A stretch of 64,000 nucleotides of DNA, taken from NCBI RefSeq assembly GCF_011421595.1, contig NZ_WTLH01000004.1, positions 1,979 to 65,978 on the forward strand. Direction: 5' to 3'. Below the pieces are notes generated by a model. The model was given only the letters and a program-made list of their open reading frames with translations, ran no database searches and had not been told where the DNA came from. Source of the DNA: Streptomyces sp. YIM 98790 (GTDB lineage: Bacteria > Actinomycetota > Actinomycetes > Streptomycetales > Streptomycetaceae). The translations under genes were made by a program, and so were the position numbers. Every line of letters begins with the position of its first letter. The stretch's first letter is position 1. Of the stretch, positions 6,405-20,942 are shown in pieces.

Positions 6405-7289
6405 TCAGGGGAAGAGCAGGTCTTCCAGGGCGAGCCGTTCCGCGGTTCCCAGGATGTCGTCCTTGTAGGGGAACTGCCCGTAGCACAGTGAGTAGCGCAG
6501 CCCGCGGTCGGCGGCGTCCAGAAGGCTGTGCACGGCGGAGTAGATGCCGGGTCGCAGGGGGGCGTGGGATGGCTGCCAGGTCGCCATGAGGTCGAAGACC
6601 GTGCGGCTGGCCTCGTGCAGGCACACGACGGAGCGGCCGATCACCTCCCCCCGGTGGATGAACTCGCGCACGACGGCGCCGCTCGCGTCCAGGATGGCCA
6701 GCAGGGCGGCGCTTTCGTGGTCCGGTACGGGACGGCCGTAACGCCAGTGCGTGAAGGCCGACCAGTGGCGGAGGAAGTCGCCGTAATCCTGGTGTTCCTT
6801 GACTCCCGTGGCGGTGTGGCGGCGCAGCAACCGGCGGTGCCGGACGGCGACCGCGCCGCACGGCTCCACGGCGACCAGGTCGGATGCGGGAACGGGGACG
6901 AGCTGGCCGCCGCGCAGGAGGAGACTCGCGTGCTGCTCGGCCCAGCGGCGCCACTCTGCGTCCAGGGCGAGCGGCAGCGCGTAGGCAAGGGTGAGGTGGT
7001 GCTGCCTGAAGGTACGCAGGTCGGCGGACTCCACCAGCCACGGCCACCGTGCCGACAGCCCGAGCAGCAGCACGGCGTGCCCGGCTTCCGTGGGCCAGGG
7101 CCGCTCGCCGGCCATGGGCAGCAGCGGCGTGCCGGGCGGTGCCAGCTCGGCCAGCGCCGCAGCCAGTTCGTGGGCGTCGGACACCCGGGCCACGGGTTTC
7201 CCGGCTGCCGAGGTGACCGTTACATGGTTCCGGTCCGCGGCGACGGTGAGGGCGATCCGGCCGTCGCCGTCCAGGAGGCGCACGTTCAT
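6405..7289 (-). CDS. GNAT-like protein of unknown substrate
   Basis: This is a 294-residue protein. The C-terminal half has the feel of a GNAT/acyltransferase fold of the kind seen in FemX- or ATE-like proteins: RPGIYSAVHSLLDAADRGLRYSLCYG at about 240-265, followed by QFPYKDDIL. The N-terminal half is unrecognised. A fragment of a second copy lies at 640-781, outside the element, so this family has been duplicated or exchanged locally. It lies downstream of the THUMP methyltransferase gene on the same strand (64-base gap) and probably shares its transcript. The link to the neighbouring glycosyltransferases is by position only. Confidence 0.5.
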   Translation of the reverse strand: MNVRLLDGDGRIALTVAADRNHVTVTSAAGKPVARVSDAHELAAALAELAPPGTPLLPMAGERPWPTEAGHAVLLLGLSARWPWLVESADLRTFRQHHLTLAYALPLALDAEWRRWAEQHASLLLRGGQLVPVPASDLVAVEPCGAVAVRHRRLLRRHTATGVKEHQDYGDFLRHWSAFTHWRYGRPVPDHESAALLAILDASGAVVREFIHRGEVIGRSVVCLHEASRTVFDLMATWQPSHAPLRPGIYSAVHSLLDAADRGLRYSLCYGQFPYKDDILGTAERLALEDLLFP

Positions 7290-7353
7290 GCCGCCCTCCG
7301 CGCCGGGGACGACGGATGCCGGCGGTCGGCGCCGCCGGGGCTCGCGCGGACGG

Positions 7354-8568
7354 TCAGACCCGGTCGTACGCCCAGATCGTCGTCTTGGTGCCCAGTAGCC
7401 GGATGGGATAGCGGTCGCGCAGGTGCAGGGTGGCGGGGACGGCCGAGCGCGGGATGCTCGGAGCCAGCAGGATGACCCGTCCGCCGCGCTGCGTCACGCG
7501 GGACAGTTCGGTGAGGACGGTGTGGAGCCAGTCCTGCATGTTGCCCTGGACCTCGTACTGCTGGCCGAAGGGCAGGTTGGAGACGCAGGCCCCGACCGAG
7601 CCGTCGGCCAGGTCGAGGTCCCGGGCATCGGCGCGGCGGACCGGCGCCTCGGGGATGTTCTGCCGGGCGATCTCCACGGCCTCGGGGTCGATGTCCGAGC
7701 CTTCCGGTGTCCAGTCCGCGCCGGCCGCCTCCCGCAGGATGGTGCCGGAGCCGCAGCAGGGGTCGAGCAGTGTGCCGGAGGGCTCCCCGGCCAGGGTGAC
7801 CATGGCGGCGGCCACGGTCGGCCGCAGGGCGCCGGACCGCTCCACCTCGCGCCCCTCGTGCTGGCGCATGCTGACGTCGGACAGCCGCAGCCCCGCCACC
7901 AGGCGGCCCTGCCGGTACTCGCTGATCCACACCTCGACCTGCGCCGGGTCGGCGAACTTCCACTTCGGCTTGTCGCTGCTGACCGCGTTGTGGACGTGGC
8001 GGCGCAGGTCGGTGCGCTTGAAGGAGCGCTCCTGCAGGACGCGGGCGATCACCCGGAACGTCATCGAGCCGGCCAGCGGCCGGACCTCGTCCGCCCACAC
8101 CGACAGGGCACGCTGCACCCGCTCCGGCCGCCAGATCCGCCCGGCGATCCAGTGCGGCCGGTCGCCGCTGGAGCGCATCGTGCGCCCCACCTCGACGAAG
8201 ATGTCCTCCACCGTGTGCACCGACCAGACCCGGTCCCGGGCGCCGCGTTCCACGTCGAAGAGGATGAAGTCCGAGCGGCCGTCGAAGCCGGAGTCGGTGA
8301 CCTGGACCCCCTGGAGCGCGTTCAGCTCCCGGATGACGAGCGGGGCCAGGCCGGGGATGGCGGTGGCGAACATGCGGGTGATTCCGGGCCGGACGCGGTC
8401 CTCGGCCTCGGGCTTCTGCTGCCGCGAGCGGGGCGGCTGCGGCGGGCCGCCCTTGCCGCGCTCCTGGCGCACGGACGTACCCCCACCCTGCCTGCGGGGC
8501 TGGCCACCGGACGTCGGCCGGGCGCGGCGGGCGGGAGACTTGCCGGGGTGAGGCGGAGGAGTACGCAC
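7354..8568 (-). CDS. THUMP-domain RNA guanine-N2 methyltransferase (Trm14/RlmL-like)
   Basis: This 404-residue protein is predicted to methylate a guanine in tRNA or rRNA using SAM. After a basic, disordered N-terminal 60 residues comes a THUMP RNA-binding region (FATAIPGLAPLVIRELNAL, about 67-85). The Rossmann methylase then has motif I DPCCGSG at 269-275 and the catalytic NLPFG at 331-335, the NPPF/Y-type motif of N-methylases. The annotated GTG start is the longest option. The THUMP domain would also be complete from the ATG just before FATAIPG. It may be a housekeeping-type modifier carried as cargo, or could confer ribosome-level self-resistance for the nearby cassette. The latter is inference. 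Confidence 0.72.
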   Translation of the reverse strand: MRTPPPHPGKSPARRARPTSGGQPRRQGGGTSVRQERGKGGPPQPPRSRQQKPEAEDRVRPGITRMFATAIPGLAPLVIRELNALQGVQVTDSGFDGRSDFILFDVERGARDRVWSVHTVEDIFVEVGRTMRSSGDRPHWIAGRIWRPERVQRALSVWADEVRPLAGSMTFRVIARVLQERSFKRTDLRRHVHNAVSSDKPKWKFADPAQVEVWISEYRQGRLVAGLRLSDVSMRQHEGREVERSGALRPTVAAAMVTLAGEPSGTLLDPCCGSGTILREAAGADWTPEGSDIDPEAVEIARQNIPEAPVRRADARDLDLADGSVGACVSNLPFGQQYEVQGNMQDWLHTVLTELSRVTQRGGRVILLAPSIPRSAVPATLHLRDRYPIRLLGTKTTIWAYDRV

Positions 8569-8656
8569 TCAGCCAGGGTAGAGGTATCCGCGCGGTGCCT
8601 CGCCCGCGTGCCCTCCGACCAGCGGATTCGGCAGCCGGCGCGGGAAGGAGCACGGG

Positions 8657-9430
8657 GTGGGCGGGTTCTGGGAGGAAGGCGGCGGGCCGGTACTGGCGGT
8701 TTCCCCGCATCTGGACGATGCCGCGCTGTCGGCGGGGGCGACGCTTGCCCGGCTTGCGGCCGACCGGCCTGTGACGGTTCTCACCCTCTTCGCCGGCGAC
8801 CCCGGGCCCGAGCTGTCCGCCGTGGCCGGGCGCCACCACGCACGCTGCGGGCTGGACGGTGACGCGGTCTCGGCCCGGCGGGCCGAGGACGCCGGGGCGA
8901 TGGCGGTGCTCGGCGCGCAACCCGTCCATGGTGACGTGCCCGACGCGGTGTACCGGCGCCGGCCCGGTGGAGGGTGGGTGTGCGAGGAGGACGGCGACAT
9001 GTTCTCCGTGCCGCCGGACGATCCCGGTCTGGACCGGCGGCTGGCGGAGCTGGTGCTCGGCGCGGCCGAGGCGACGGGCGCCACGCTGGTGCTGGGCCCG
9101 GTGGGCACCGGCGGCCATGTGGATCATGTCCTGACGCGCAGGGCGGTTCTGCGGGCGGCTGCGGCCCGCGGGCTGCCGGTGCTGTGCTGGCAGGACGAGC
9201 CCTACGCCTCCTGGTCCAAGCCGGACATGGACGGCCCGGCGCTGCGGGTGCCGTTCACCCCGGAGACCCTGGCGGCCAAGCTCGGCGCTGTGGCCTGCTA
9301 CCGCTCCCAGCTCGGCATGCTGTGGCCGGGCGGCCAGGACTGGCGGGCCGCCGTGTCGCGGGCGGGCGCCGGAGGACCGCCGGGTGAAGTCTTCTGCCGT
9401 CCTCACGCCGCCAGCTCCTCGACCAGGTGA
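8657..9430 (+). CDS. PIG-L/LmbE-family zinc-dependent N-acetylglucosaminyl deacetylase
   Basis: This 257-residue deacetylase is predicted to remove an acetyl group from an N-acetylhexosamine unit. The metal site is visible: SPHLDD at 16-21 (H18, D20/D21) and GGHVDH at 152-157 (H154, H157), with the RRAEDAGA helix at 74-81 between them. The GTG start at 8657 is supported by GGAAGGAG ending 6 bases upstream. It faces the glycosyltransferase operon and overlaps the end of its last gene by 28 bases. PIG-L enzymes commonly work after a GlcNAc-transferase, so a role in tailoring the product of that operon is plausible, but its transcript is separate. Confidence 0.85.
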   Translation: MGGFWEEGGGPVLAVSPHLDDAALSAGATLARLAADRPVTVLTLFAGDPGPELSAVAGRHHARCGLDGDAVSARRAEDAGAMAVLGAQPVHGDVPDAVYRRRPGGGWVCEEDGDMFSVPPDDPGLDRRLAELVLGAAEATGATLVLGPVGTGGHVDHVLTRRAVLRAAAARGLPVLCWQDEPYASWSKPDMDGPALRVPFTPETLAAKLGAVACYRSQLGMLWPGGQDWRAAVSRAGAGGPPGEVFCRPHAASSSTR

Positions 9431-10521
9431 CGGAATGCCGCGGTCATGCGCGGCAGGCCGTAGTGGCTCCCGATGTACGGGCGCCCCCGGTGGCGGCACT
9501 GCTCGGGGCCGTGGCGCATCGCTTCGCGCGCCGTGGGGACGAGCTCCGCCGGGTCGGCGCCCGGCGGGACCAGGTACAGCCCATGGCCGGGCGGAAGCAT
9601 GTCGGCGAGGAAGCCGGACGGAGTGGCTGCCACGGGTGTGCCGCAGGCGACGGACTCGGCGGCGACCAGGCCGAAGCCCTCGGCGGCATCACCCAGGCAG
9701 AGGGTCAGGTCGGCCCGGTGGTAGACCGCCGGCATCCGCTGGTGCGGCTGCCAGGGCATGATCCGCAGGCGGACGGCGTGGGCTTCGGCTTCGCGGCGGA
9801 GCTGCGCGGTGAAGCCGGCCGCGCCGAATCCGTCCGGCTGGGCGAAGCACATCAGGGTTGCCGGCGTACCGCCGGCCTCCATCGCTCGTGCCAGGCCGAG
9901 AGCCCGGCGGAAGCCCTTGTCCCAGCCGGGGCGGCCGGCCACCAGCAGCCGCACCTCCCCGGGGTCACGGGCCTGGCCGGCGGGCCGTGGGGTGAAATGC
10001 GTCAGGTCGATCCCGTTGGCCACGACCGAGACGTTCGCGGCCTGCGGCGCGTGCTCGCGGACCTGGCGGGCCACGAACGGGGAGGGGACCACCAGCCGGT
10101 CCCACGCCCGGTGACGGAGCACGTCGAGGGTGTGCGGGTAGCCGACTCCGCCCAGGCACGCGATGCGGGGCGCGTCGGCGGGGAGGTCCAAGGTGCGTTC
10201 CACGGTGACGATCACGTCCGCTTCCTGGAGGCTGCGGAGCGCCGGACCGGTGAGGCGCGGGCTGATGTGGCCGCGCTCGCGCACGTGCGCGTCCAGCGGG
10301 AATGCGGCGATCACGCGGGCGGGGAAGCCGGGCTCCGCCCCGGAACCGGCGGGCCGCGCGTCGGCCGGGAATCCGTGCAGGACGGTCACGTCGGCCGACG
10401 AGGCGAGGGCGCGTACCAGGTGCACGGCGACCACCTCGGCACCGCCGAGCATGCGGGCCGGGTCGAAGGGCGGCACCTGGAGGACGCAGATCTTCAGGTC
10501 TTCCGGTCGTCGTCGGTTCAC
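9403..10521 (-). CDS. Glycosyltransferase family 4
   Basis: This 372-residue GT-B retaining glycosyltransferase is the last gene of the coupled operon. The acceptor domain starts KICVLQVPPFDPARMLGGAEVVAVHL, with the donor-side R197 and K202 in AGRPGWDKGF. The hallmark E-x7-E motif is E281 and E289 in EGFGLVAAESVACGTPV. The GTG start at 10521 was chosen because it makes a GTGA overlap with the upstream GT2 gene, repeating the pattern of the operon. The donor sugar cannot be told; many GT4 enzymes use GDP-mannose or UDP-GlcNAc, and the latter would fit the PIG-L deacetylase opposite. Confidence 0.82.
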   Translation of the reverse strand: MNRRRPEDLKICVLQVPPFDPARMLGGAEVVAVHLVRALASSADVTVLHGFPADARPAGSGAEPGFPARVIAAFPLDAHVRERGHISPRLTGPALRSLQEADVIVTVERTLDLPADAPRIACLGGVGYPHTLDVLRHRAWDRLVVPSPFVARQVREHAPQAANVSVVANGIDLTHFTPRPAGQARDPGEVRLLVAGRPGWDKGFRRALGLARAMEAGGTPATLMCFAQPDGFGAAGFTAQLRREAEAHAVRLRIMPWQPHQRMPAVYHRADLTLCLGDAAEGFGLVAAESVACGTPVAATPSGFLADMLPPGHGLYLVPPGADPAELVPTAREAMRHGPEQCRHRGRPYIGSHYGLPRMTAAFRHLVEELAA

Positions 10522-11303
10522 CGGGCCGGCTCCGGCTCGTCGGAGAAGTTCGCGGCCAGCTCGGGGCGGTACCGCAGGTCGAACAGGTCTGCGTAGTAGC
10601 CCTCGCGGTAGCGGTTGGTGCACAGGTCGCCCTGGGGGAACTCCTGCTTGGAGAAGCTGCCTGCCGTGTCGCGGTAGCCGTAGAGGGCTTCGGGCAGCTT
10701 GTGGAACCGGCCGGCCAGGAGCTGGTGCAGCATGAAGTCGATGTCCTCGCCATTGGTGGTCTCGTCGAACGGGTGCGCTTCCCAGAGCTCCCGGCGGATG
10801 GCGAGGAGCTGGTTGAAGAAGGTGGGGTGGCCGACGCTGTCGGGGTCGGTGCGGTAGATCCAGCGGGGCGGCCGGTAGGTGAGGGACTGCGGCCACGGCT
10901 CCGGCCGGCCGTCCGCGGTGATCCGGGTCATGCCCGTGGAGACGATGTCCGCCTCCGCGTGCCGCACGGTGTGGACCAGCCTGGCGAGGGCGTCGGGGTG
11001 CAGGAGGTCGTCTCCGTCGAGGTAGGCGATCCACGGGGTGCGGGCGGCGGCGAAGCCGGCATTGCGCACCCGTCCGGCGGTTCCGCCTTCCACTTCGAGG
11101 ACGCGTGCTTCCCGGCACCGGACGTGGGGCAGCAGGCCGTCGTACAGGGCGGTGACGCCGGGGGAGCCGGTGGTGTCGGTGCAGCACACCAGGTCGAAGC
11201 CGGTGCTGGTCTGCGCCGCTACCGAGGTCATCGCCTCGGTGAGGTAGCGGGTGTGGTGCGCGGTGACCACCACGGTCAGCAGCGGGGCGGGCGAGGCCGT
11301 CAC
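10518..11303 (-). CDS. Glycosyltransferase family 2 (GT-A fold)
   Basis: This 261-residue inverting-type glycosyltransferase begins LLTVVVTAHHTRYL and has the nucleotide-sugar metal motif DGDD at 96-99 (AYLDGDDLLHPDAL). A second acidic pair, E185-D186 in TTNGEDIDF, gives the catalytic base region of GT2 enzymes. No membrane segment is seen, so it is cytoplasmic. The GTG start gives a GTGA overlap with the gene upstream and its stop overlaps the GT4 start, so the three glycosyltransferases are translationally coupled. Confidence 0.82.
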   Translation of the reverse strand: MTASPAPLLTVVVTAHHTRYLTEAMTSVAAQTSTGFDLVCCTDTTGSPGVTALYDGLLPHVRCREARVLEVEGGTAGRVRNAGFAAARTPWIAYLDGDDLLHPDALARLVHTVRHAEADIVSTGMTRITADGRPEPWPQSLTYRPPRWIYRTDPDSVGHPTFFNQLLAIRRELWEAHPFDETTNGEDIDFMLHQLLAGRFHKLPEALYGYRDTAGSFSKQEFPQGDLCTNRYREGYYADLFDLRYRPELAANFSDEPEPAR

Positions 11304-12436
11304 AGCAGCCGGTCCAGGTGGGCGGCGAACAGGGCGCCTGCGTCCGGAAGTGATTCGGGCAGCGGGAGGCGGAGAGCCGGTCCGTCCTCGGGGCGGTCCA
11401 GATAGCCGAGGAGGGCCTTGCGGATGGTCTCGCCGGCGGGGTCGGTGATCCGGACGGTGTCGGCGATCCGGGCGGCGACGTGGGCGACTCCCGCGGATTC
11501 CGGCAGGCCGGCGATGTGCTCGGCGGCTTCCGCCTGCCAGGGCCAGGCGGCCACGTGCGGGTATCCGGTGCCCAGCAGGTTTCGGATCTGCAGCACCATG
11601 CTCATGCTGAAGCCCGGCTGCCACAGGGGCGTGAGCCGGCTGTGGGCACACTCGTAGAGGGACGTCAGCCCGGGGCTGGCGATCAGGTGCTGCACGGTGC
11701 GGGCGGTGCGGGCGTAGGCGGCACGGTCCATGGCGGGGCGGACGCGGACCGCCGGATGGGTCCGCCACGGATCGGGAACGAGCCCGGCCAGGTCGGCCCG
11801 GCCGCCGGCGATGACGATCCGGGCCGCCGCGTCGCGTTCGGTCAGTACCGGCAGGGCGGCGCCGAGGAACCAGCGGACGTAGGCAGCCACGAGGTTCTCC
11901 CCGCCGGGCAGGTGCATGCCGCCGAATCCGATCAGCACCGAGCCGTCGCGGGCCGACGGGCCGGTCGGACCCCACAGGCTCGGGTCGACGATCGGGCGCA
12001 CGTATTCCCGCCGGTCCCCGGGGGTCGGCCGGTGGTCGCCGAAGTACGCCTGCGCCAGGTGGAACTCGGCTCCCTCCAGTCCGTCCGGCAGGCCGCGCCA
12101 CATCCAGTCGAGCGTGTCGACGATGCCGACCCGGTAGCCGTGGCGGATGGCCCAGACCGCGAACTCCGGGTTGGTGCCGGATATCACGAGGGAGCCAGGC
12201 GGGGCGATGTCCAGGAAGGCCGGCCAGTGCGCCGGGGCGAAGGTGTCCAGTTCGTGGCGGGCGGCGCCCGGGAGTTCGGAATGCACGAACCGCGCGGCTC
12301 CGCCCCTGGAGACCACGTGCCACGCCACGTCGCGGGGAACCGCCCGCGCCAGGGTCAGCATGGTGGCGGCCGGACCGTACCCGAAGCCGGGGAACTCCAG
12401 GTAGACCGGCTGCCGCTCAGACGGTGTAGATGTCAA
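11300..12436 (-). CDS. GT-B-fold glycosyltransferase-like protein
   Basis: This 378-residue protein looks like a GT-B transferase: VYLEFPGFGYGPAATMLTLARAV at the start, SVLIGFGGMHLPGG in the domain linker, and a donor-site-like LIASPGLTSLYECAHSRLTPLWQPG near 290. The general look recalls cytosylglucuronate synthases and other small natural-product glycosyltransferases. That is only an impression, and no cytosine-forming hydrolase is nearby. A TTG at 12436 is the only start upstream of the conserved first strand. It overlaps the preceding methyltransferase gene by 20 bases, so reading is probably coupled. Third gene of the six-enzyme operon. Confidence 0.6.
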   Translation of the reverse strand: MTSTPSERQPVYLEFPGFGYGPAATMLTLARAVPRDVAWHVVSRGGAARFVHSELPGAARHELDTFAPAHWPAFLDIAPPGSLVISGTNPEFAVWAIRHGYRVGIVDTLDWMWRGLPDGLEGAEFHLAQAYFGDHRPTPGDRREYVRPIVDPSLWGPTGPSARDGSVLIGFGGMHLPGGENLVAAYVRWFLGAALPVLTERDAAARIVIAGGRADLAGLVPDPWRTHPAVRVRPAMDRAAYARTARTVQHLIASPGLTSLYECAHSRLTPLWQPGFSMSMVLQIRNLLGTGYPHVAAWPWQAEAAEHIAGLPESAGVAHVAARIADTVRITDPAGETIRKALLGYLDRPEDGPALRLPLPESLPDAGALFAAHLDRLL

Positions 12437-12980
12437 AGCACTGTCCTGTGTGGTCGAAGGTGAAGCCGGCGTCGGTGAGCTGTGCCCGCCACCACTCCCG
12501 CGGCCGGGTGATGCGGCGCAGGGGATCGGGTACCTCCTGCTCCTCGCCCTCGTAGTAGCTGGAGAACAGCAGGAACCGGCGTGCCGCCCGCCGCAGGCGG
12601 GCCAGGACGCCGGGCAGTTCGTCCTCCTCCAGGTAGAGCAGGACACCCAGGGCGAAGACCGCTTCGGCCCGGCGCGGTATGCCGCGGCGGATGTCGGCCC
12701 GGTGGCAGGGCAGCCCGGTGGCGAAGGAGAGGGCGTAGTCGCTCACGTCGTAGCCGACGGCGTCGATACCGGCGGCCAGCAGTTCCGCGACGAGGAAACC
12801 CTTGGCGCAGCCCAGGTCGACAGCGGATCTCACCTTGCGGTGCTCGCAGAACTCGCGGGCCGCCTGCCAGGGCAGGTAGCCGCCGTCGCCGTTGTCCTCC
12901 CGGTGGTAGCCGCGATAGCCCAAGCCGTGCGGGTCGTCGAAGTATTCGTAGCCGAATCCGGCGCTGTCCTCAGCCCGCAC
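12417..12980 (-). CDS. Class I SAM-dependent methyltransferase (small)
   Basis: This 187-residue methylase has the SAM-binding motif I VDLGCAKG at 54-61, an acidic residue after strand 2 (VGYDVSD) and a short C-terminal region. It lacks a long acceptor domain, as usual for small-molecule O- or N-methyltransferases. The sequence before motif I (YEYFDDPHGLGYRGYHRED) is typical of sugar or nucleotide-linked acceptor methylases. GTG start at 12980, overlapping the end of the upstream methyltransferase by 11 bases. Substrate unknown; with three glycosyltransferases downstream a sugar methyl ether is a reasonable guess. Confidence 0.75.
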   Translation of the reverse strand: MRAEDSAGFGYEYFDDPHGLGYRGYHREDNGDGGYLPWQAAREFCEHRKVRSAVDLGCAKGFLVAELLAAGIDAVGYDVSDYALSFATGLPCHRADIRRGIPRRAEAVFALGVLLYLEEDELPGVLARLRRAARRFLLFSSYYEGEEQEVPDPLRRITRPREWWRAQLTDAGFTFDHTGQCFDIYTV

Positions 12981-13701
12981 CGCTCACCGCCCTGCGGCGC
13001 CACATCGTGCCGACGGTGGCTCCGCTGATCCCGGCCTCCAGGAGCTCTCCGTGCCGGCCGAAGGCCGGGAGCAGTGTCCAGTGGTTCTCGGGGTAGTGCA
13101 TGTCCTTGCCGTCCCAGGGACGCGGGTCGTGCGGGAAGAAGTTGACCGCGACGTAGTCGGCCGCGCCGAACAGGCGGCCGGCGAAGGCGGCGGGGTCGGG
13201 GATGTGCTCGATGACATCCACGGCGTACACCAGGTCGAGACGCCGGCCGCCGAGGTGATCGAGCGGGAAGGTCACGTCTTTGGTGCCCATGTCCTGCTGC
13301 AGCCGCCAGGCCGCGTAATCCAGGCTCGGGCACGGCATGTCGTAGAGGGAGACCTGGTAGCCGGCGCGCATCAGCGCCTGGGCGTCCAGCCCGACGCCGC
13401 ATCCGACGTCGCCCAGCGTCCGCAGCCCGTGGGCGTCGGCGAAGCGGGTGACCATCCGGAAGAAGTCGTCCTTGTAGGGGCTGAAGTGGAAGTGGGTGAG
13501 CTCGTAGAGGTAGCCGTTGCTGGAACGGTAGAACTCCTCGGGCCCGTAGCGGGCGAACTCCTTCTCGACGAAGGTGCAGCATGCCTCGAAGTCGGTGAGG
13601 CCGCTGCGGAAGTCCTCGCCGAGGTAGGCGGCGAGCCGCTGCCACGCCGGGCCGATGTCTCCGTAGGCCCGAAGCGGCTGCCGTCCGGTGGCGGTTGTCA
13701 T
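12970..13701 (-). CDS. Class I SAM-dependent methyltransferase
   Basis: This 243-residue methylase has motif I LGDVGCGVGLDA at 97-108, the post-strand acidic SLYDMPCP, and the motif IV-like VYAVDVIEHIPDP. These mark the Methyltransf_11/23 type acting on small molecules. An N-terminal helical lid of about 85 residues (ending HFHFSPYKDDFF) may form the acceptor pocket. The ATG overlaps the radical SAM stop codon (ATGA), so it is coupled to that gene. The second methyltransferase follows with an 11-base overlap. The pair may act on two positions of the same product. Confidence 0.78.
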   Translation of the reverse strand: MTTATGRQPLRAYGDIGPAWQRLAAYLGEDFRSGLTDFEACCTFVEKEFARYGPEEFYRSSNGYLYELTHFHFSPYKDDFFRMVTRFADAHGLRTLGDVGCGVGLDAQALMRAGYQVSLYDMPCPSLDYAAWRLQQDMGTKDVTFPLDHLGGRRLDLVYAVDVIEHIPDPAAFAGRLFGAADYVAVNFFPHDPRPWDGKDMHYPENHWTLLPAFGRHGELLEAGISGATVGTMWRRRAVSGAG

Positions 13702-14387
13702 GACAGGTCTTCCTCTCCGCGCATCAGCGTGCAGCCCGTGCACAGGGCGGCGGGCCGGAAGCGGTAGCGGTCCGGGTCGGTGAGGTAGTCGTCCACAGTG
13801 CCTTGCACGCCACTGCCTTCCACATCGATGCAGCAGAGGTTGACCCGGCCGTCCCAGAGCACGACGGCGGCGTTCTGCCGCTCGAACAGGCATGGCCCCG
13901 GGCCTACGGACGGGTGTGAGGTGCCGGAGGCCGCGCGGCTGGTCACCTGGCCGGCCCAGGTGTGCAGGGTGTCGCGGGTGGGCCGGAAGGTGTCCCGCAG
14001 TTCGATCGGGAGGCCGCTGTCCGCGATCAGCCGGCGCACCCGCCGCGTCTCGCCCCTGGTGTGCTCCGAGACGTACAGGAAGCGCAGTCCGGCGTCCGCC
14101 AGCGCGGACAACCGGTCCTCGGTCAGCAGGACACCGTTGGTGAAGAAGCTGGCCGTCACACCCCGTTCCGTGCAGTGGCGCACGAAATCCGTCACCTCCG
14201 GGTGCAGCAGGGGCTCTCCGAAGTTGTGCAGGTACGCGGTCCGCTGTCCGCACCGGATCAGCAGGTCCACGGACCTCTCGAAGGTCTCCCGGTCCATGAG
14301 CCCCTGGGAACGTCGCTGTACGGGATGCGGGCAGTAGGAGCAGGTGAGGTTGCACCGGTTGGAGATCTCTATCTGGTAGATCTTCAC
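13698..14387 (-). CDS. Radical SAM protein with C-terminal SPASM/twitch-like domain
   Basis: This 229-residue enzyme is predicted to make a 5'-deoxyadenosyl radical. The [4Fe-4S] motif C12-x3-C16-x2-C19 (NRCNLTCSYCPHP) is near the N-terminus, followed by HNFGEPLLHP, the usual GGEPLL-type SAM-contact strand. The C-terminal part has CLFE, NLCCID and CTGC cysteines like a SPASM or twitch auxiliary-cluster domain. Such enzymes modify peptides (crosslinks, thioethers) or oxidise cyclitols and sugars. The start is GTG 14387, because it makes a GTGA overlap with an 18-codon ORF that has a strong ribosome site. At about 230 residues it is short, as for BtrN-type dehydrogenases. Confidence 0.82.
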   Translation of the reverse strand: MKIYQIEISNRCNLTCSYCPHPVQRRSQGLMDRETFERSVDLLIRCGQRTAYLHNFGEPLLHPEVTDFVRHCTERGVTASFFTNGVLLTEDRLSALADAGLRFLYVSEHTRGETRRVRRLIADSGLPIELRDTFRPTRDTLHTWAGQVTSRAASGTSHPSVGPGPCLFERQNAAVVLWDGRVNLCCIDVEGSGVQGTVDDYLTDPDRYRFRPAALCTGCTLMRGEEDLS

Positions 14388-14440
14388 CTCATACCCCGGT
14401 ACTGGCCCGCACGTGGGGGTGCTCCCGCTCGGCTGTGCAC
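14384..14440 (-). CDS. 18-codon ORF heading the radical SAM operon (possible precursor or leader peptide)
   Basis: GTG at 14440 is preceded by GAGGAGG with 7 bases of spacing, about the best ribosome site in this part of the window. An in-frame TGA lies just upstream, so no longer reading is possible. The peptide reads MHSRAGAPPRAGQYRGMR. Its TGA overlaps the GTG of the radical SAM gene by 4 bases, the same coupling used down the whole operon. It may be a very short RiPP precursor (it has a Tyr-Arg pair and no Cys), or simply a leader that loads ribosomes onto the radical SAM gene. No homologue is known to me. Confidence 0.5.
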   Translation of the reverse strand: MHSRAGAPPRAGQYRGMR

Positions 14441-14539
14441 CGCGTTTCCTCCTCAACTGCACCGGCTTCCGGCCCGGTCCGCACGGGGCACGAAGACCCG
14501 GGGGAAACCGGCGCCACCGTCGTCGGCCACCGGACCGTG

Positions 14540-15103
14540 TCAGTCTGTGGTTACTCGTGTCCACGGTGCAACGGGATTGGATCGGACAAGACCGGACGAA
14601 GATCGGCAATTGCCCGAGAGCCATCTCCACTGTCCGGCCGCGGCTCCCCAGCCGTAGCCGTCCGGCGCGTCCTCGGCCGCCGTGTGCATCTCGGCCCACA
14701 GGTGCCGTCCGCGCAGGATGAGGGCGGGACAGCGGCTGCTGCGGCGGGTCAGCAGCGGGAGCGCGAGAACGCGGCGGGCGGAGAGCACCAGGCGGGTGCC
14801 GGAGCCGGCCAGTTCCAGCTCGTACTCTCCGCCGGCGTCGAGTGTCCTGGTGAGTGTGCGTGGTGCCTGCCGGTCCTGTAACCAGGTGCGCAGACCGCTG
14901 TCGATGCTGCGCGGAAGCGCCTGGCTGACACCGGCCGCCGCGCGCCGCAGGTGCTTGTACGCGTCCCGCGCGTTCGGCAGCACGTCCCAGTCGAGCAGCT
15001 GGCCCTGCTCGGCGCCGTCGACAGCGACGTACGAGGTGCACCGGTAGAGCACTGACGGACGGGCCGCGGCCGGTGGCCGCGGCCGGGGTATGGAGCCGGT
15101 CAC
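14540..15103 (-). CDS. Hypothetical protein upstream of the radical SAM operon
   Basis: This 187-residue cytoplasmic protein has no recognised family. A conserved-looking core spans SVLYRCTSYVAVDGAEQGQLLDWDVLPNARDAY to LVLSARRVLALPLL. The last 25 residues look less constrained. The GTG start at 15103 is 16 bases beyond the stop of the ATPase gene, so the two are probably one transcript. The 100 bases between its stop and the 18-codon ORF contain no terminator-like hairpin that I could see. The ATPase, this gene and the biosynthetic genes may therefore be one long unit. Confidence 0.5.
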   Translation of the reverse strand: MTGSIPRPRPPAAARPSVLYRCTSYVAVDGAEQGQLLDWDVLPNARDAYKHLRRAAAGVSQALPRSIDSGLRTWLQDRQAPRTLTRTLDAGGEYELELAGSGTRLVLSARRVLALPLLTRRSSRCPALILRGRHLWAEMHTAAEDAPDGYGWGAAAGQWRWLSGNCRSSSGLVRSNPVAPWTRVTTD

Positions 15104-15119
15104 CCTGTGGTCCCCTCTC

Positions 15120-15536
15120 TCAGGCAGCCGCGGTGGCGTGGCGGAGCCTGAACCAGATCTGTTTTCCGTACAGCAGCGGCTCGACGGCCATCTGGTCGAC
15201 CAGGCCGGACAGCAGGTAGAGCCCTCTGCCGCTTTCCGCCTCGTCGTCGGGCCTGTCCAGAGTCGGCAGGCGTTCGTCGAAGTCGGTGACCGAGACGAGG
15301 ATGCCGTCGTGCATCTCCCGGATCAGGAGTTCGCAGTCGCCGGGCGTGTGGCGGTGGACGTTGGCGAGCAGTTCGCTGACGCCCAGCTCCGCCAGGTCGC
15401 ACAGAGTGAGCTGGCCCCACATCTCCAGGTGGGCCCGGACGATCCTGCGGACCGGGCCTATGTCCTCGGCGCGGATGGCCGGCAGCGCGATCCGGCACTG
15501 TCGTACGACCTCGACCAGCAGGACGGACATGGGCAC
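15120..15536 (-). CDS. HATPase_c anti-sigma-factor-like ATP-binding protein
   Basis: This 138-residue GHKL-fold ATPase of the RsbW/SpoIIAB-like group is abundant in Streptomyces. The N-box ELLANVHRHTPGDC lies at about 54-67, the DFDER segment in the middle and the G-box SGRGLYLLSGLVD near 100-112. It probably binds a regulator rather than phosphorylating DNA-binding proteins itself. It is divergent from the XRE/DUF397 pair across a palindrome at 15646-15676. WhiJ-like loci often have exactly this trio. A second methionine two codons in (ATG 15530) is an equally possible start. Confidence 0.8.
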   Translation of the reverse strand: MPMSVLLVEVVRQCRIALPAIRAEDIGPVRRIVRAHLEMWGQLTLCDLAELGVSELLANVHRHTPGDCELLIREMHDGILVSVTDFDERLPTLDRPDDEAESGRGLYLLSGLVDQMAVEPLLYGKQIWFRLRHATAAA

Positions 15537-15645
15537 CTCCAGAAGACACAGGCAGATGCGCGCGGCGGCCTCGGCGTTCCGCCCTGCCGGAACCGCCTTT
15601 GTGCCGCGGCACCGTCGATGGTCCGCTAGCTATCCTTGGGGCAAG

Positions 15646-15676
15646 TAGCGTATAGGAAAGTCTTTCCTCCGCGCTA
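15646..15676. promoter_or_regulatory. Palindromic operator between ATPase and XRE genes
   Basis: AGGAAAG-T-CTTTCCT at 15654-15668 is a perfect 15-base palindrome. It is flanked by a second matching pair, TAGCG at the left and CGCTA at the right. It lies in the divergent promoter region about 110 bases from one start and 70 from the other. It is the best candidate binding site for the WhiJ-like XRE protein encoded just downstream. Confidence 0.6.
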
Positions 15677-15738
15677 TCTGTCTCAACGTTCGGGGTGGCC
15701 CGGACGCTAGGCTTTCCCCGCGAAGGGAGGAGGTGACC

Positions 15739-16596
15739 ATGCCTGTCGAGCCCACCCCGCGCCGTCGGCGGCTGGGAGCCGAACTGCGGCGCATCCGTGA
15801 GGATCTGGGCTGGACCCAGGAGGAAGCGGCTCGCCGTCTCGGCTACCGGTCCCTCTCCACGGTCAGCAAGATCGAGAACGGTGTGCAGGCGCTCAAGTTC
15901 CAGCAGCTCTCGCACTTCTTCGAGGTCTTCGGCATCACCGACCCCGCGCTGCAAGAGATGCTGCGGGACCTGGTGCGCAAGGCGGCCGAACCGGACTGGT
16001 GGCAGCGCTACGGCGGCATGGTCGCCGACCCGCTCGGCGACTACCTCTCCCAGGTCGAGGGCGCCGCCGGCCTGTTCGTCTTCAACCCGATCGCGGTCCA
16101 CGGACTGCTGCAGACACCCGAGTACGCCCGCGCGGTGACCGAGGGCAGCAGGGCGTGGAAGGCTCCGGAAGACATCGACCGCTGGGTCGAACTCCGCCTG
16201 GAACACCAGCGGAACATGCTGGAACGCCGCCCACCGCTGAAGATCTGGGCGGTCCTCACCGAAGGGCTGCTGCGGCAGGAGGTCGGCGGCCGGGCGGTCG
16301 CCCGCGCCCAGGTCGAGCACCTCGCCCACCTGGCCCGCACCAGCCCCAACATCACCCTTCAGGTCCTGCCGTTCCGGGCCGGCGCCCATGCCGGAATGGA
16401 CGGGCCGTTTATGTGTATGTCGTTTCCGACCGGACGTGACATCGTGTGTATCGAATCCATGCGCGCACTGCTGCACATGAACGAGCCCGAAACGGTGGAG
16501 GCGTACCGCACCACCAGCGATCTGCTGAAGTCGGACGCCCTGTCGCCGAAGGCTTCGCTGTCGCTCCTGAACACCATCGCCAAGGACCTGTCGTGA
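15739..16596 (+). CDS. WhiJ-like XRE regulator with DUF5753 (Scr1-type) domain
   Basis: This 285-residue DNA-binding protein has an XRE helix-turn-helix at about 8-65 (LGAELRRIREDLGWTQEEAARRLGY, then STVSKIENG). A DUF5753 ligand or partner domain runs to the end (FNPIAVHGLLQTPEYARAV, VLTEGLLRQEVGG). In Streptomyces this family controls development and secondary metabolism together with small DUF397 proteins. ATG 15739 is preferred: GGAGG lies 8 bases upstream, while GTG 15733 would leave only 2. The stop overlaps the start of the DUF397 gene. It probably regulates itself and the divergent ATPase/biosynthetic genes through the adjoining palindrome. Confidence 0.85.
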   Translation: MPVEPTPRRRRLGAELRRIREDLGWTQEEAARRLGYRSLSTVSKIENGVQALKFQQLSHFFEVFGITDPALQEMLRDLVRKAAEPDWWQRYGGMVADPLGDYLSQVEGAAGLFVFNPIAVHGLLQTPEYARAVTEGSRAWKAPEDIDRWVELRLEHQRNMLERRPPLKIWAVLTEGLLRQEVGGRAVARAQVEHLAHLARTSPNITLQVLPFRAGAHAGMDGPFMCMSFPTGRDIVCIESMRALLHMNEPETVEAYRTTSDLLKSDALSPKASLSLLNTIAKDLS

Positions 16597-16823
16597 ACAA
16601 GAACGCCCTCGACCCGGCCTGGATCGCCGACCAGCTCACCGGCGCCACCTGGCAGACCGCCAGCAGCGGCGGCCAGACCTGCGTCCAGGTCGCCTTCCTC
16701 GACCAGGGGATCGTTGCCCTGCGCGACTCCAAGAACCCCGACCAGCCCCCGCACCTGTTCACCGATGCCGAATACGACGCCTTCGTCGCCGGCATCCAGC
16801 GCGGCGAACTGCGCCGCCCCTGA
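16593..16823 (+). CDS. DUF397 small protein
   Basis: This 76-residue protein of the DUF397 family has the family core ATWQTASSGGQTCVQVAFLDQGIVALRDSKNP, a paired-strand W...S..GG..CV.VA...VA.RDSK pattern, and ends FTDAEYDAFVAGIQRGEL. DUF397 proteins are the usual partner (antitoxin-like or co-regulator) of XRE-DUF5753 proteins. The GTG start gives a GTGA overlap with the XRE gene, confirming the pair. The molecular role of the family is not settled. Confidence 0.85.
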   Translation: MNKNALDPAWIADQLTGATWQTASSGGQTCVQVAFLDQGIVALRDSKNPDQPPHLFTDAEYDAFVAGIQRGELRRP

Positions 16824-16968
16824 CCGACTTTCCGGGCGGCCGGCGCCGACACCCCGGCCGTCTGTCCACTCAGCCCGTGCCCATGGCCCGGGACCGCAGC
16901 CGGAAATCCTGTCATGGGCCGGTGGCTCACCCCCTGCCCCGCATCGGCCGCCCTGGAGGATGCAAGAC

Positions 16969-17382
16969 GTGTCCCAGCACACCGCAGACGAGCAACCGGC
17001 TGTTGCCGCCGCCGTCACCGTTCACGAGGGACGGGTCCTGATGGTGCGGCGGCGGGTCAGCGAGGGCCTGCTCTCCTGGCAGTTCCCGGCCGGGAAGGTG
17101 GAGCCCGGCGAGACGCGGGAGGACGCGGCTGTGCGGGAAACCAGGGAGGAGACCGGTCTGGACGTCTCCGCGGTCAAGCTGCTCGGCGAACGCGTCCACC
17201 CGGCAACCGGCAGGCGCATCTCCTACACCGTCTGCGAAGTGATCAGTGGGACCGCTCACGTCGCCGATCCCCAGGAAGTCGCCGAGATCGCATGGGTGTG
17301 CCTCGCCGACATCCCACAGTACGTTCCCTATGGCCTGTACGGCCCGGTGCAGCACCATCTCGACGCCACCCTCGCCGGCTGA
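16969..17382 (+). CDS. Nudix hydrolase
   Basis: This 137-residue nucleoside-diphosphate-linked hydrolase has a complete Nudix box (G42-x5-E48-x7-R56-E57-x2-E60-E61, in AGKVEPGETREDAAVRETREETG), which binds Mg and the pyrophosphate. The N-terminal strand AAAVTVHEGRVLMVRRR is typical of the MutT/8-oxo-dGTPase branch, but substrates vary. The GTG at 16969 is chosen because GGAGG ends 9 bases upstream. The ATG at 16960 would sit on top of that site. It lies 145 bases after DUF397 and may be a separate unit. A terminator hairpin follows. Confidence 0.82.
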   Translation: MSQHTADEQPAVAAAVTVHEGRVLMVRRRVSEGLLSWQFPAGKVEPGETREDAAVRETREETGLDVSAVKLLGERVHPATGRRISYTVCEVISGTAHVADPQEVAEIAWVCLADIPQYVPYGLYGPVQHHLDATLAG

Positions 17383-17430
17383 CAGGTACGCGCTTCGACG
17401 CGGCCCCGTCCGGGTGGCGCTGGGGCGTTG

Positions 17431-17458
17431 CTGTGCCCGCCGCTGAAGGCGGGCACAG
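17431..17458. terminator. Hairpin between Nudix and relaxase genes
   Basis: CTGTGCCCGCC pairs with GGCGGGCACAG around a 6-base loop. It lies between two convergent genes and can serve both. There is no long U run, as is usual in Streptomyces. Confidence 0.65.
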
Positions 17459-17464
17459 CGTTGT

Positions 17465-19189
17465 TCAGCGCGCGGGCCTTCGGGCTCCTTGTGGTGATTG
17501 CGGGGCGGGCTGGGCGAGGGCGGTGGCTGGTGTCGCGCTGTTGCGGTTGTGGATGCTGCGTGCGTGGGCGGCGAGGGCGCGTGCGCTGGGTGCTGGCCGG
17601 TGGGCGAGGCGGTGGATGCGCCAGATGAGGACGTGGGCGGGTGAGCGGACGTCGTCGAGGCTCCTGAGACGGACGATGCGATTGAGCAGCTCGCCGGGTG
17701 TGTGCCCAGCGTTCTCCGCTTGGGCCAGGGCGGCTTGCAGGGCCGGCCATGCGGGGTCGGTCAGGATCTGTTCTGCGTGCTCGGGGAGGGCCTGGCGGAG
17801 GTGGTGGATGTAGCGGCGGGCCGCGTCCTGCGGCGGCCGGTGTTGGGCGAGTGCGGCGATGGGCGCGGCGGCTGCGCGGGTGTAGGCGGTGTGGAGGTGG
17901 GTGAGGGCTTGGCGTGCCGCGGCTTCCTGTTGCCGGTGGTGGCGGATGTGGTGCCAGTGGCGTGCGGCGATGACGGCGAGGAGTGCGGCGTCGAGGAACA
18001 TGGCCAGCGCGCTGTCGTCGGCTGGTGCGGGGGTGCGCAGGATGGTCTTGACGGCGGTGCGCAGGGCGCGGGCCTGGTGGTGTTCGGCGCGGATGCGGGA
18101 GCGGGTGGCGCGCTCGAACGCGGTGGCGGCGTGTTGGAGTTCGGTGGCGATGGTTGGCGGGGTGAGGGCGGGCAGGGAGTCGAGGGCTTCGCCGAGGGCG
18201 GCCAGGTGTGCCTGGGCTGCTGCGTCGTCGCCTGTGTGGGTGAGGAGGTGGGGAATGCGGTCGGTGGCGGCGGTGGCCTGGTGCCAGGGGTTGGGCCGGT
18301 GACGCTTCGGTGTGGCGGCGGGTGCGGCTGTGGCTGCTGCGGGTGCGGTGGTGTCGGTGGCGGCCAGGCGTTCGCGGATGCGGGGCAGGGAGAGGTCGGG
18401 GGCGAGGGTGGAGCCGGCGAAGGTGACCGGCTGCCCCTTGGCGTTGACATCGCCGGGGAGGGCGACGGTGTAGCCCAGGAGGTCTCCGGAGGGCGCGACG
18501 CGGGTGGTGACGAGGACGCCCATGCGGTCCAGGACGGCGAAGAACTCCGCCTCGTTTGCCGCTGCGGTCACGGCCTGGCGTACCCGGGTGCGCAGCACCT
18601 CGCGTGAGGTGCGGGTCTGGCCCTGGCGGTGGGCTTTGAAGTGTTCCTTGCTGGTGGGGCGTTTGGCTGCGGTGCCGTCGCCGGGGTTGAGGCGGCGCAG
18701 GCCGTAGTCGGTTTCGATCTGGCGGCAGGTGGCCTGGGCCTGCTTGTAGTCGTAGGTGCGGCGGGCGATGCGGCCGTCCTGCCGCACGAGGGTGGCGGCG
18801 ATGTAGATGTGGTCGTCGGCGTGGCGGATGGCGACCCAGCGGCAGGCTTCAAGATCGCCTTCGGGGGCGATGCCGGTGGCGGCCACCACCCGTCGGGCGA
18901 TGTCGGCCCATTCCTCGTCGGTGAGGGTGCGGTCCTGGGGGGCGGCGCGCAGGGAGCAGTGCCACACGGTGGTGGCGGGCGCGAGGTCGCCGCGCAGCGC
19001 GAGGGGCTGGTCGAGCTGGCGCGCGAGCTGGGCGATGGTGTGGTGGGAGCCGGCGCGCGGGTCGGGGGCGAAGCCGTTCCAGGAGGCGATCATGTGCTGG
19101 TCGGTGTGCTCGTTGTGCTTGCCGGGGCCGTAGAGGTAGGCGATCAGGCGCCGGGTGCCGCTCTTGCCAGTGGTGATCTTCGGTATCAC
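17465..19189 (-). CDS. Relaxase (MobA/VirD2-type mobilization nuclease)
   Basis: This 574-residue protein is predicted to nick the element at its transfer origin and stay bound to the DNA end. The N-terminal relaxase domain (MIPKITTGKSGTRRLIAYLYGPGKHNEH) offers Tyr18/Tyr20 as nicking candidates. It continues through WHCSLRAAPQDRTLTDEEW to RHADDHIYIAATLV, a histidine cluster replacing the textbook HxDxxHxH motif. The C-terminal 350 residues are Ala/His-rich and helical, unlike the N-terminus. The ATG overlaps the MobC stop by 4 bases. Together with MobC it supports a mobilizable element; no transfer ATPase is present. Confidence 0.85.
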   Translation of the reverse strand: MIPKITTGKSGTRRLIAYLYGPGKHNEHTDQHMIASWNGFAPDPRAGSHHTIAQLARQLDQPLALRGDLAPATTVWHCSLRAAPQDRTLTDEEWADIARRVVAATGIAPEGDLEACRWVAIRHADDHIYIAATLVRQDGRIARRTYDYKQAQATCRQIETDYGLRRLNPGDGTAAKRPTSKEHFKAHRQGQTRTSREVLRTRVRQAVTAAANEAEFFAVLDRMGVLVTTRVAPSGDLLGYTVALPGDVNAKGQPVTFAGSTLAPDLSLPRIRERLAATDTTAPAAATAAPAATPKRHRPNPWHQATAATDRIPHLLTHTGDDAAAQAHLAALGEALDSLPALTPPTIATELQHAATAFERATRSRIRAEHHQARALRTAVKTILRTPAPADDSALAMFLDAALLAVIAARHWHHIRHHRQQEAAARQALTHLHTAYTRAAAAPIAALAQHRPPQDAARRYIHHLRQALPEHAEQILTDPAWPALQAALAQAENAGHTPGELLNRIVRLRSLDDVRSPAHVLIWRIHRLAHRPAPSARALAAHARSIHNRNSATPATALAQPAPQSPQGARRPAR

Positions 19190-19809
19190 GCCGCGTCCCG
19201 TCCCCGCACCACGTGCCCGACGGCCTCATCGACACCGGCTATGGCCGCCTCCACCAGGGCGATGAGGTGCTGGAAGGCGGCCAGGGCGGGTTTGTCGCCG
19301 TCGGAGTTGAGGTGGCGGGCGATCTGGTTGACGTTGTTGCCGATCGCGGCGAGCTGCCGGTTGCTGGCCATCAGCTCCCGCACGGTGCGCCGGTGGTGTG
19401 CCACGGCCGCCTCGGGGTTGTCGCTGCGGGCGGCGGCCAGGGACGCTGCGGCGACGAACCCGCCGGCGGGCATGCCCGAGCGCCGTGCCGCAGCGAGGAT
19501 CTCCTGCTTCTCCTGCGGGCTGTAGCGCGGGCAGATCCGGTCCCCGCGCAGCCTCGGCTGGCGCAGCCGACGCCGCGCCGGCCGGGACGAAGCGGCGGAC
19601 GCACCGTGGCCCGCGCCTTCCTCGGTCGGCACCCCCGGGCCGGCCGTTCCCGGTGCCGCCCCGGCACCGGGGCTGTCCTCCGCCACTCCCGGGGCGGAGA
19701 AGCCATAAGGATTCCTTATGGCACAACTTGCTGCGCGGTCGGTGGGATCAGGGCCGTTGACCTGCGGGATGTGCTGGTGAGGAGGTGTGCTGGGCATGAA
19801 GTCTCGCAT
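19186..19809 (-). CDS. MobC-like relaxosome accessory protein
   Basis: This is a 207-residue protein. The first 85 residues are Pro/Ala/Gly-rich and probably disordered. The MobC domain follows: RYSPQEKQEILAAARRSGMPAGGF is a ribbon-helix-helix-like segment. NRQLAAIGNNVNQIARHLNSDG, with its NNVNQIA core, is the diagnostic part. It would bind DNA at the transfer origin and help the relaxase. Its stop overlaps the relaxase ATG. Two starts are possible (ATG 19809 or 19797); neither has a good ribosome site. Confidence 0.8.
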   Translation of the reverse strand: MRDFMPSTPPHQHIPQVNGPDPTDRAASCAIRNPYGFSAPGVAEDSPGAGAAPGTAGPGVPTEEGAGHGASAASSRPARRRLRQPRLRGDRICPRYSPQEKQEILAAARRSGMPAGGFVAAASLAAARSDNPEAAVAHHRRTVRELMASNRQLAAIGNNVNQIARHLNSDGDKPALAAFQHLIALVEAAIAGVDEAVGHVVRGRDAA

Positions 19810-19839
19810 TTCGATGGGGCGGTGGGTGATGAGCGCCGA

Positions 19840-20409
19840 GGTCCGGCGTGTCTGGGCGGTGCACGGGCTTTGTTGGCGGTCCGCGTCTGGTCCGCAGAGT
19901 TTTCGTGCGCCGGTTGGCGTGTCGGCGTTGATCGTGGACCGGCCGGGCGGTGTGGTCCGCGATCGGCTATTGGTTCAGGCAGCGGGCGGACCGGCTCGCA
20001 GAGCGTGGGAAGCCGGTCGGAGCAGAGCTTCAGTTGGTTCGGCCCGCGACTGGTCCGGGGCGGTGACCTGGAGGGATTTCCGGTCAGCCGTCCCGGACCG
20101 GTGGGTGGTCAGGGGGTGTGGGTGGTCCGCAGGGCGGTCATGACCTGGGTGAGTCGGTCTTCGCTGATGCGGTGTCCGGCGGTGCGGATGGCCTGGCGGA
20201 CCGTGGCGCGGGTGGGGGGTTCGTGCGCTGTGGTCAGTGGGCGGACCAGGCGGACCAGTTCGTCCAGGGGCGCGGTGGGTGGCCGGCCCACGCGTCGCCG
20301 CACCTTCTCGTGGTCCGGCCGAGCCGGTCCCTCGCTTTGCCGTTTCGGGTGGTGGTCCGTGGTCTGGTCCGCATGGTCCGCTTCCTCGTGCGGGTGGTCC
20401 GGGGCTGGG
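19840..20409. repeat. Dense GGTCC(G) motif cluster around the MobC promoter region
   Basis: About a dozen copies of TGGTCCG/CGGTCCG (and several CGGACC reverse copies) lie from 19840 to 20405. They span the 299-base gap upstream of MobC and the 3' end of the DUF2637 gene. Spacings are irregular. The position beside relaxase genes makes an origin of transfer or MobC binding array possible; biased Asp/His codon use explains only the copies inside the gene. Confidence 0.45.
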
Positions 20410-20942
20410 CCGGAGGCCACTGCGGTGTGGGGAGCGAGGAGCGTGTGGACGGTGTGCTGGTGCGGCCCGGTCTGGGGTTGGTGGCCGTGGCGGGTGATGA
20501 GGATGTGGAGGTGGACGGCGCCGGCGAGGGCGAGTGGGGCGAGGGTGGACAGGGTGCCGACGGTGAGGTCGTCGAGGTGGAGGGCTGTGGGTGGGGTGTG
20601 CTGGTTGAGGCGGACGGCGTGCAGGGCGTTGGACCAGATACTTGCGGCCGTCGCTGCGGTGAAGAGGGTCCAGACGTAGAGGCGGGCGTGGAAGGTGGCG
20701 GTGCGCATCACGAGCAGGGCGCGTACGCCGTAGGCGATGAAGCCGTCGATGACCAGGGGGAAGAGGTAGGTCAGCGGGCCGCGGATGTGGATGGCGACGG
20801 CCATCTGCTGGAGGGCGTCGTAGGACAGGGCGCATCCGGCGGCGCCGAGGGCGGTGATGGCGGCGCGGTCCCAGCCGGTGGCACGGTGCCCTGCCGGAGA
20901 CGTGGCGGGCAGGGTGGTGGGGTGCACGGGTGGTGGCTCCAT
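20109..20942 (-). CDS. DUF2637 membrane protein (Spd-like, plasmid-spread associated)
   Basis: This 277-residue protein has about four membrane helices in its first 150 residues (ITALGAAGCALSYDALQQMA, YLFPLVIDGFIAYGVRALLV, YVWTLFTAATAASIWSNAL, TLSTLAPLALAGAVHLHIL), the DUF2637 pattern. A hydrophilic C-terminal tail of about 110 residues ends in a putative DNA-binding segment (VGRPPTAPLDELVRLVRPL, then RATVRQAIRTAGHRISEDRLTQVM), like a small helix-turn-helix. Such genes are found in conjugative plasmids and integrative elements of Streptomyces, where Spd proteins help spread along the hyphae. The direct role here is not shown. Confidence 0.75.
   Translation of the reverse strand: MEPPPVHPTTLPATSPAGHRATGWDRAAITALGAAGCALSYDALQQMAVAIHIRGPLTYLFPLVIDGFIAYGVRALLVMRTATFHARLYVWTLFTAATAASIWSNALHAVRLNQHTPPTALHLDDLTVGTLSTLAPLALAGAVHLHILITRHGHQPQTGPHQHTVHTLLAPHTAVASGPAPDHPHEEADHADQTTDHHPKRQSEGPARPDHEKVRRRVGRPPTAPLDELVRLVRPLTTAHEPPTRATVRQAIRTAGHRISEDRLTQVMTALRTTHTP

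Follow-up and report, generated by a model that had tools for sequence, protein, structure and literature searches.

Short leader ORFs located shortly before structural genes have been described in Actinobacteria, including Streptomyces, and reinitiation behind them is proposed to raise translation; in the available excerpts of that study, leaders do not overlap the gene and preferably lie 10-11 bp from it (Korolev et al. 2016, PMC4833913). For bacteria, the accessible parts of two other papers likewise report coupling where genes overlap (PMC6728339, PMC10666635), and the term 'uORF' is absent from the accessible parts of two papers on Streptomyces translation (PMC8914203, PMC4895711). The 18-codon ORF analysed here resembles the leader genes excerpted from PMC4833913 in being short, unannotated and placed immediately 5' of a structural gene, in lacking an amino-acid signature and in its proposed boost to translation, but its stop overlaps the next start by 4 nt instead of being separated from it by a 10-11 bp gap, so that this is not the arrangement favoured by Korolev et al. 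It shares a short stop/start overlap with the termination-reinitiation pairs in the accessible parts of PMC6728339 and PMC10666635, but its upstream partner is an 18-codon frame and no established gene.

The ORF lies on the minus strand of the window (the whole 64-kb stretch of DNA that was analysed; Table 1), where positions 14440..14384 read VHSRAGAPPRAGQYRGMR*, that is, GTG, 17 further codons and TGA. A preliminary description had reported, without naming the strand, an 18-codon GTG frame before a radical SAM gene, a GAGGAGG motif at 7-nt spacing from the GTG at 14440 and an in-frame stop just upstream. The sequence bears out all three, and the observation itself is confirmed; the upstream TGA (14455-14453) overlaps the Shine-Dalgarno (SD) motif and closes a 25-codon mechanical ORF (14530..14453). 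The GTGA overlap that had also been put forward is present, as the radical SAM gene starts with the GTG at 14387 and shares these 4 nt with the stop of the short ORF, yet it is not independent evidence: because the second codon of the enzyme is AAG, GTG-A always yields TGA, and a frame overlapping in this way then requires only an upstream start and an SD. This automatic overlap is illustrated by the related locus of an Actinomycetes MAG (L004), in which a 61-codon frame without SD closes in the same GTGA. The claim that all later genes of the operon are coupled alike holds approximately: all five later junctions overlap, three of them by 4 nt (4, 11, about 20 with an inferred TTG start, 4 and 4 nt).

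Table 1. Features of the short ORF, the neighbouring operon and the surrounding element (window coordinates).
Feature	Position	Strand	Remarks
18-codon ORF, proposed translation leader	14384..14440	-	GTG..TGA; sequence reading, codon statistics
Shine-Dalgarno GAGGAGG	14448..14454	-	7 nt 5' of GTG at 14440
In-frame TGA	14453..14455	-	overlaps SD; closes upstream mechanical ORF
Radical SAM enzyme	13698..14387	-	229 aa, GTG start; CxxxCxxC; start backed by relatives beginning V/MK(I/V)YQIE
Methyltransferase 1	12970..13701	-	4-nt ATGA overlap
Methyltransferase 2	12417..12980	-	11-nt overlap
Glycosyltransferase-like protein	11300..12436	-	inferred TTG start, open in L004 too
Family 2 glycosyltransferase (GT2)	10518..11303	-	GTGA overlap
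Family 4 type glycosyltransferase (GT4)	9403..10521	-	GTGA overlap
PIG-L family deacetylase	8657..9430	+	convergent with operon; relative in L004
UPF0020-type methyltransferase	7354..8568	-	no L004/L005 match at E <= 1e-3
Weakly GNAT-like protein	6405..7289	-	18.9 bits, cut-off 22; relatives in L004 (48%) and L005 (25%)
Integrative element holding operon	1651..26869		45-bp direct repeats at 1651-1695 and, in tRNA-Gly, at 26825-26869

The preliminary description had proposed to look for a conserved short ORF in homologous operons. We inspected related enzyme genes singly for frames of 5-40 codons ending within -40 to +15 of the enzyme start and preceded by an SD match of at least 5 bases. No such frame was found before the genes of the two closest relatives, L004 and a Bacteroidales MAG contig (L005), or before five genes on four viral contigs (L015, L016, two in L017, L018); the SD match is 6 bases long in the window and 4 bases for some L017 frames. 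As the leader is absent before these seven singly examined relatives, it is dispensable for the enzyme family, and the refuting observation named in the preliminary description, the radical SAM gene present but the short ORF lacking, is made in all seven. A wider automatic scan covered 69 viral loci together with L004 and L005, and assigned a start by a simple rule to 85 of 86 radical SAM ORFs: in 11 of the 85, a short frame had an SD match of 5 bases, and in none did the match reach 6. These 11 include L019 and L020 (mutually identical, and among the nearest relatives), in which the short frame shares the same 4-nt overlap and forms the end of a 120-aa ORF related to a gene in L016 (6.9e-16). 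In 10 of the 11 cases, a short frame is merely the end of a longer ORF, at least 71 aa in length (one of them, L023, has a second frame of 41 aa), and in the eleventh, L078, it is part of a 36-aa frame. An alignment of the upstream DNA of the window and L004, with an apparent 39-nt gap by the SD, was set aside and not used, because 60 of 1000 dinucleotide-block shuffles equalled its similarity. Neither L004 nor L005 contains a counterpart peptide beyond shuffled controls, since 19/30 and 25/30 shuffles, respectively, scored as well.

Codon usage was compared with that of the operon genes, whose GC contents at codon positions 1 to 3 are 0.73, 0.51 and 0.91 (1659 codons). The short ORF has G or C at 14, 13 and 12 of its 18 first, second and third positions, respectively (third position, P = 0.0036 against 0.911). 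Its codon log-score, -10.9, falls below all 94 17-codon pieces of operon genes (minimum -3.1), and the remaining two frames of the same stretch, at -13.7 and -6.2, are not coding-like either. By codon use, no selection is visible on the 18-codon peptide. Though short, the codon test points to a leader rather than a gene.

Ribosome-site strength differs between the two starts. SD duplex energies were computed against an assumed 16S tail and compared with those of 361 sampled start codons. The site of the 18-codon ORF reaches -11.5 kcal/mol, within the best 2.8% of the sample, and the enzyme's own start has GGGG at spacing 6 and an unremarkable duplex of -6.4 (25%). The L004 enzyme has a site of its own at -10.7 (best 4.2%), and no SD-led leader frame there. 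A strong site upstream and a weak one at the gene are what a loading leader would give, but this pattern was spotted post hoc, and a mediocre own site is not peculiar to the enzyme gene, because those of the gene with the inferred TTG start (-4.0), GT2 (-3.9) and GT4 (-5.8) are also weak.

To derive the chance expectation, the 152 nt preceding the enzyme start were dinucleotide-shuffled 5000 times. An ORF led by AGGAGG, 5 or more codons long and closing with that GTGA, appeared in 0.6% of shuffles; with any of four 6-mer SDs in the lead the figure was 2.0%, and with any of four 5-mer SDs 6.3%. When any frame ending near the start was allowed, the proportions were 0.8% (AGGAGG), 2.9% (6-mer) and 7.9% (5-mer). 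All these rates are per upstream region, before allowing for the search across a whole 64-kb window read for oddities, which contains ten starts led by AGGAGG, spread over eight frames and opening ORFs of 8-45 codons (six on the plus and four on the minus strand, the 18-codon ORF included). At this spot the SD-led ORF is notable, yet it is no rarity in a window scanned from one end to the other.

The enzyme encoded next to the short ORF probably starts at GTG 14387, judging from its relatives: the L004 protein begins GTGAAGATCTACCAG, the L005 protein ATGAAAGTTTATCAA and the L018 protein MKIYQIEIT; in L005, a TAA lies in frame 12 nt upstream of the start, and the interval contains no start codon. 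The CxxxCxxC motif and five further, C-terminal cysteines are invariant in seven aligned proteins. Pfam recognizes the radical SAM core (53.6 bits), and a SPASM match (PF13186) remains below the cut-off (18.6 bits, cut-off 21.5). A PqqD-like recognition domain in or near radical SAM peptide maturases is common, not universal. In Pfam, nothing PqqD-like matched the enzyme at E <= 1, or the other scanned operon proteins at E <= 0.001 or 0.01. The best NCBIfam match, TIGR04317 (73.2 bits), is far under its cut-off of 380, and the same holds for the peptide maturases PapB (37.2 of 340 bits) and CcpM (27 of 500 bits); with 40.7 bits against a cut-off of 400, the enzyme also scores far too low for the BlsE family of cytosylglucuronate decarboxylases (TIGR04466). 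When an anti-phage system was considered, PADLOC gave a viperin-type match for it (43.5 bits), and PHROGs yields generic radical SAM families only (34.5 bits). Its solved sequence relatives are BtrN (1.6e-12), the structure entry 8wm2, titled AbmM (1.3e-11), PqqE (1.5e-9), cytosylglucuronate decarboxylase (9.7e-9) and two weaker ones, all matching in the N-terminal half. BtrN and AbmM have aminocyclitol or nucleoside substrates. The enzyme is like BtrN and BlsE in its radical SAM core, over the first ~110 residues, but this similarity leaves its C-terminal part uncovered. According to the consulted parts of the literature, BlsE likewise acts on an aminocyclitol or nucleoside substrate (PMC3715490) and PqqE is a peptide enzyme (PMC10906245); with PqqE among them, the solved relatives alone do not exclude a peptide substrate. 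Fold matches were not used beyond the title of 8wm2, because an AlphaFold2 model built from 3 sequences reached a pLDDT of 49.

Among the operon partners, the glycosyltransferase-like protein, taken in a slightly longer reading, scores 42.5 bits with the cytosylglucuronate synthase family TIGR04467, whose cut-off is 300. None of the operon proteins scanned matched a peptidase or a transporter. In PADLOC, the UPF0020-type protein matches mads_2 (58.6 bits) as well as methyltransferases. A sigma-70-type promoter was not found by a consensus scan of positions 5000-16000.

The explanation we favour, with modest confidence, is that the 18-codon ORF is a short, non-conserved translation leader. Its anatomy is that of a leader, with a ribosome site and a start upstream and a stop at the gene start, and the difference in predicted SD strength, the lack of conservation and the non-coding codon use go with it. 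Ribosomes would bind at GAGGAGG, a strong site, translate 18 codons of irrelevant amino acid identity, stop at the TGA and reinitiate at the GTG that overlaps it, where the enzyme gene has a mediocre site of its own; the overlapping later genes would be fed in the same manner. Of these steps, the loading is backed by the sequence, and the restart is an inference. The main rival is chance, in which a G-rich SD lookalike lies by accident ahead of an open frame, while initiation for the enzyme takes place at its own GTG and the 18-codon frame has no role. Chance is a possibility to be taken seriously, if a doubtful one. It agrees with the lack of conservation in the relatives examined, with non-coding codon use in the peptide frame and in both other frames, with a GTGA overlap that is automatic given the AAG second codon, and with the ten AGGAGG-led short-frame starts across the window. 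It must, however, accommodate a 6-mer SD at ideal spacing whose frame runs just to the start of the enzyme (for one upstream region, a 0.6-2% event), an enzyme site weaker than that of L004, and the lack of any 6-base SD-led short frame at this place among the 85 related radical SAM ORFs.

The preliminary description had preferred to see the short ORF as coding for a ribosomal peptide precursor that the neighbouring radical SAM enzyme modifies, and had named a translation-loading leader as its alternative; the alternative fits better, and a RiPP precursor/maturase pair was rejected as largely refuted by conservation, codon use, peptide similarity and domain content. Size and position would suit a precursor, very short ones exist (five-residue biarylitide precursors, though P450-modified, in the accessible text of PMC13417212), and PqqE is found among the solved relatives, as are PapB and CcpM among the sub-threshold NCBIfam matches. 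A precursor is nevertheless highly improbable, given that no short frame led by an SD of at least 5 bases precedes seven other genes of the family, that L004 and L005 have no counterpart peptide, that codon use is non-coding, that the enzyme has no PqqD-type match at E <= 1, and that its partners are glycosyltransferases and methyltransferases, without a peptidase or transporter match in the scanned proteins. Alternatively, the 18 codons could be an N-terminal extension of the enzyme, split off by a one-base sequencing error or a recent indel. Such extensions can be read in the closest relatives on viral contigs (L016 from ATG 5932; L019 and L020 by automatic start choice), and the assembly is a draft of 424 contigs. 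However, the in-frame TAA of L005 lies 12 nt before its ATG with no start codon in the interval, L004 has a strong SD directly 5' of its GTG (though its frame is open further upstream) and none of the three frames over the 51 nt is coding-like; from these relatives and frame statistics we consider an extension very unlikely. We give as little credence as to the precursor to a regulatory leader peptide that would sense a small molecule or an amino acid by stalling or attenuation. It would sit well before a biosynthetic-looking operon, but the peptide is not conserved and has no run of one regulatory codon, no Rfam family reaches the gathering score at the short ORF, and folding of the leader region is unremarkable (z -0.50 and -0.14); Rfam and folding also gave nothing for an RNA regulator.

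The operon itself looks like cargo of an integrative element, as it lies between the direct repeats together with an integrase and a relaxase. The repeats enclose 25,219 bp (25.2 kb), with the integrase, an HTH_17 protein, the relaxase and a DUF2637 protein, and the element also carries a type IIG-like restriction gene (1968-5021, 247.8 bits). A DDE transposase gene (PF13701; 24984-26372) lies between the integrase and the tRNA-Gly end. The host assembly totals 6.48 Mb. Cargo status is in keeping with the absence of matches in other sampled genomes at the thresholds used: searches of 392 genus genomes at E <= 1e-30, and of 396 phylum genomes and 395 relatives at 1e-20 (the three sets overlap), matched the source genome alone, and among 198 relatives of genome G912, and the same for G913, only the centre genome matched at 1e-25. 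Plasmids provided 43 records, all below 60% identity (22.8-36.9% for the 20 listed), and named phages a single weak match (33.0% over 48%).

The gene set of the operon (radical SAM, glycosyltransferases, methyltransferases, deacetylase and GNAT-like protein) appears to be rare. It recurs in L004, where 8 of the 10 window genes compared are matched in the same order at 48-70% identity: the radical SAM gene (70%, full length), both methyltransferase genes, the three glycosyltransferase-like genes, and the PIG-L and GNAT-like genes. No L004 match was found for the UPF0020-type gene or for 5300-6397. In L005, the set is partial and rearranged, with 4 of 10 genes matched: the radical SAM gene (65% over 69 residues, followed by an in-frame TGA and the contig end), a TIGR04467-like gene (30%), GT2 (49%) and the GNAT-like gene (25%). 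The gene 5' of the L005 enzyme encodes a further methyltransferase of the PF01170 type. There is a 20-nt overlap between its frame and the enzyme start, and it does not match that of the window at E <= 1e-3. The region 1-5119 of L005 also contains a SLOG/lysine-decarboxylase-like gene (2760-3827).

Otherwise, we met this radical SAM family only on viral contigs. The viral collection gave no match to a single protein, and 4, later 69, loci to alignments; the label 'phage' rests on the collection's own naming, because named phages gave only the weak match mentioned above and, with the L016 enzyme, none at 1e-8. The L016, L019 and L020 proteins are related to the window enzyme over most of its length (34-37% in the best segment; 40% for L016 in the alignment), and in a tree of 78 rows they are grouped with the window enzyme and L004 (99/95; midpoint root drawn). 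Their loci carry QueD-like and QueE-like genes (phmmer), unlike the window operon, in which neither was seen. As any of six 7-deazaguanine-type genes is present in 5 of the 69 viral loci, the link to such genes applies to the nearest branch plus a few others and does not extend to the whole family. In L015, FolE, QueC and TGT have Pfam support, as does QueD in L016; QueE in L016 is below the Pfam cut-off, and the DpdA-like gene of L016, without Pfam match, is our own reading only. In the host genome, no QueC match was found by a search whose control was positive in 12 of 14 genomes, and a host-made 7-deazaguanine is thus an unlikely substrate. Literature on 7-deazaguanine and radical SAM enzymes names no such family in the parts available, which is not proof of its being unpublished, and the term 'radical SAM' does not occur in the accessible text of PMC6884629. 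A 151-aa protein of L016 (4031-4486) has relatives in L018, L019, L020 and L076. Two different radical SAM genes lie close together on L017, L022, L023, L027, L028 and other contigs, the L017 pair among genes resembling phage structural ones.

We consider the short ORF to be of low significance and the operon of modest significance. The former adds one more example of possible ribosome loading onto an operon in GC-rich bacteria, and a caution that a strong SD and a GTGA overlap do not prove a peptide gene. In the most far-reaching reading, which we consider rather unlikely, the operon would be the novelty and the short ORF a side issue: its products could take part in making or altering a glycosylated nucleoside-like compound not yet described, or a modified nucleic-acid base. 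The operon links mobile actinobacterial cargo to a radical SAM family of viral contigs whose nearest members lie by base-modification-type genes, and therefore offers a testable hypothesis on the substrate.
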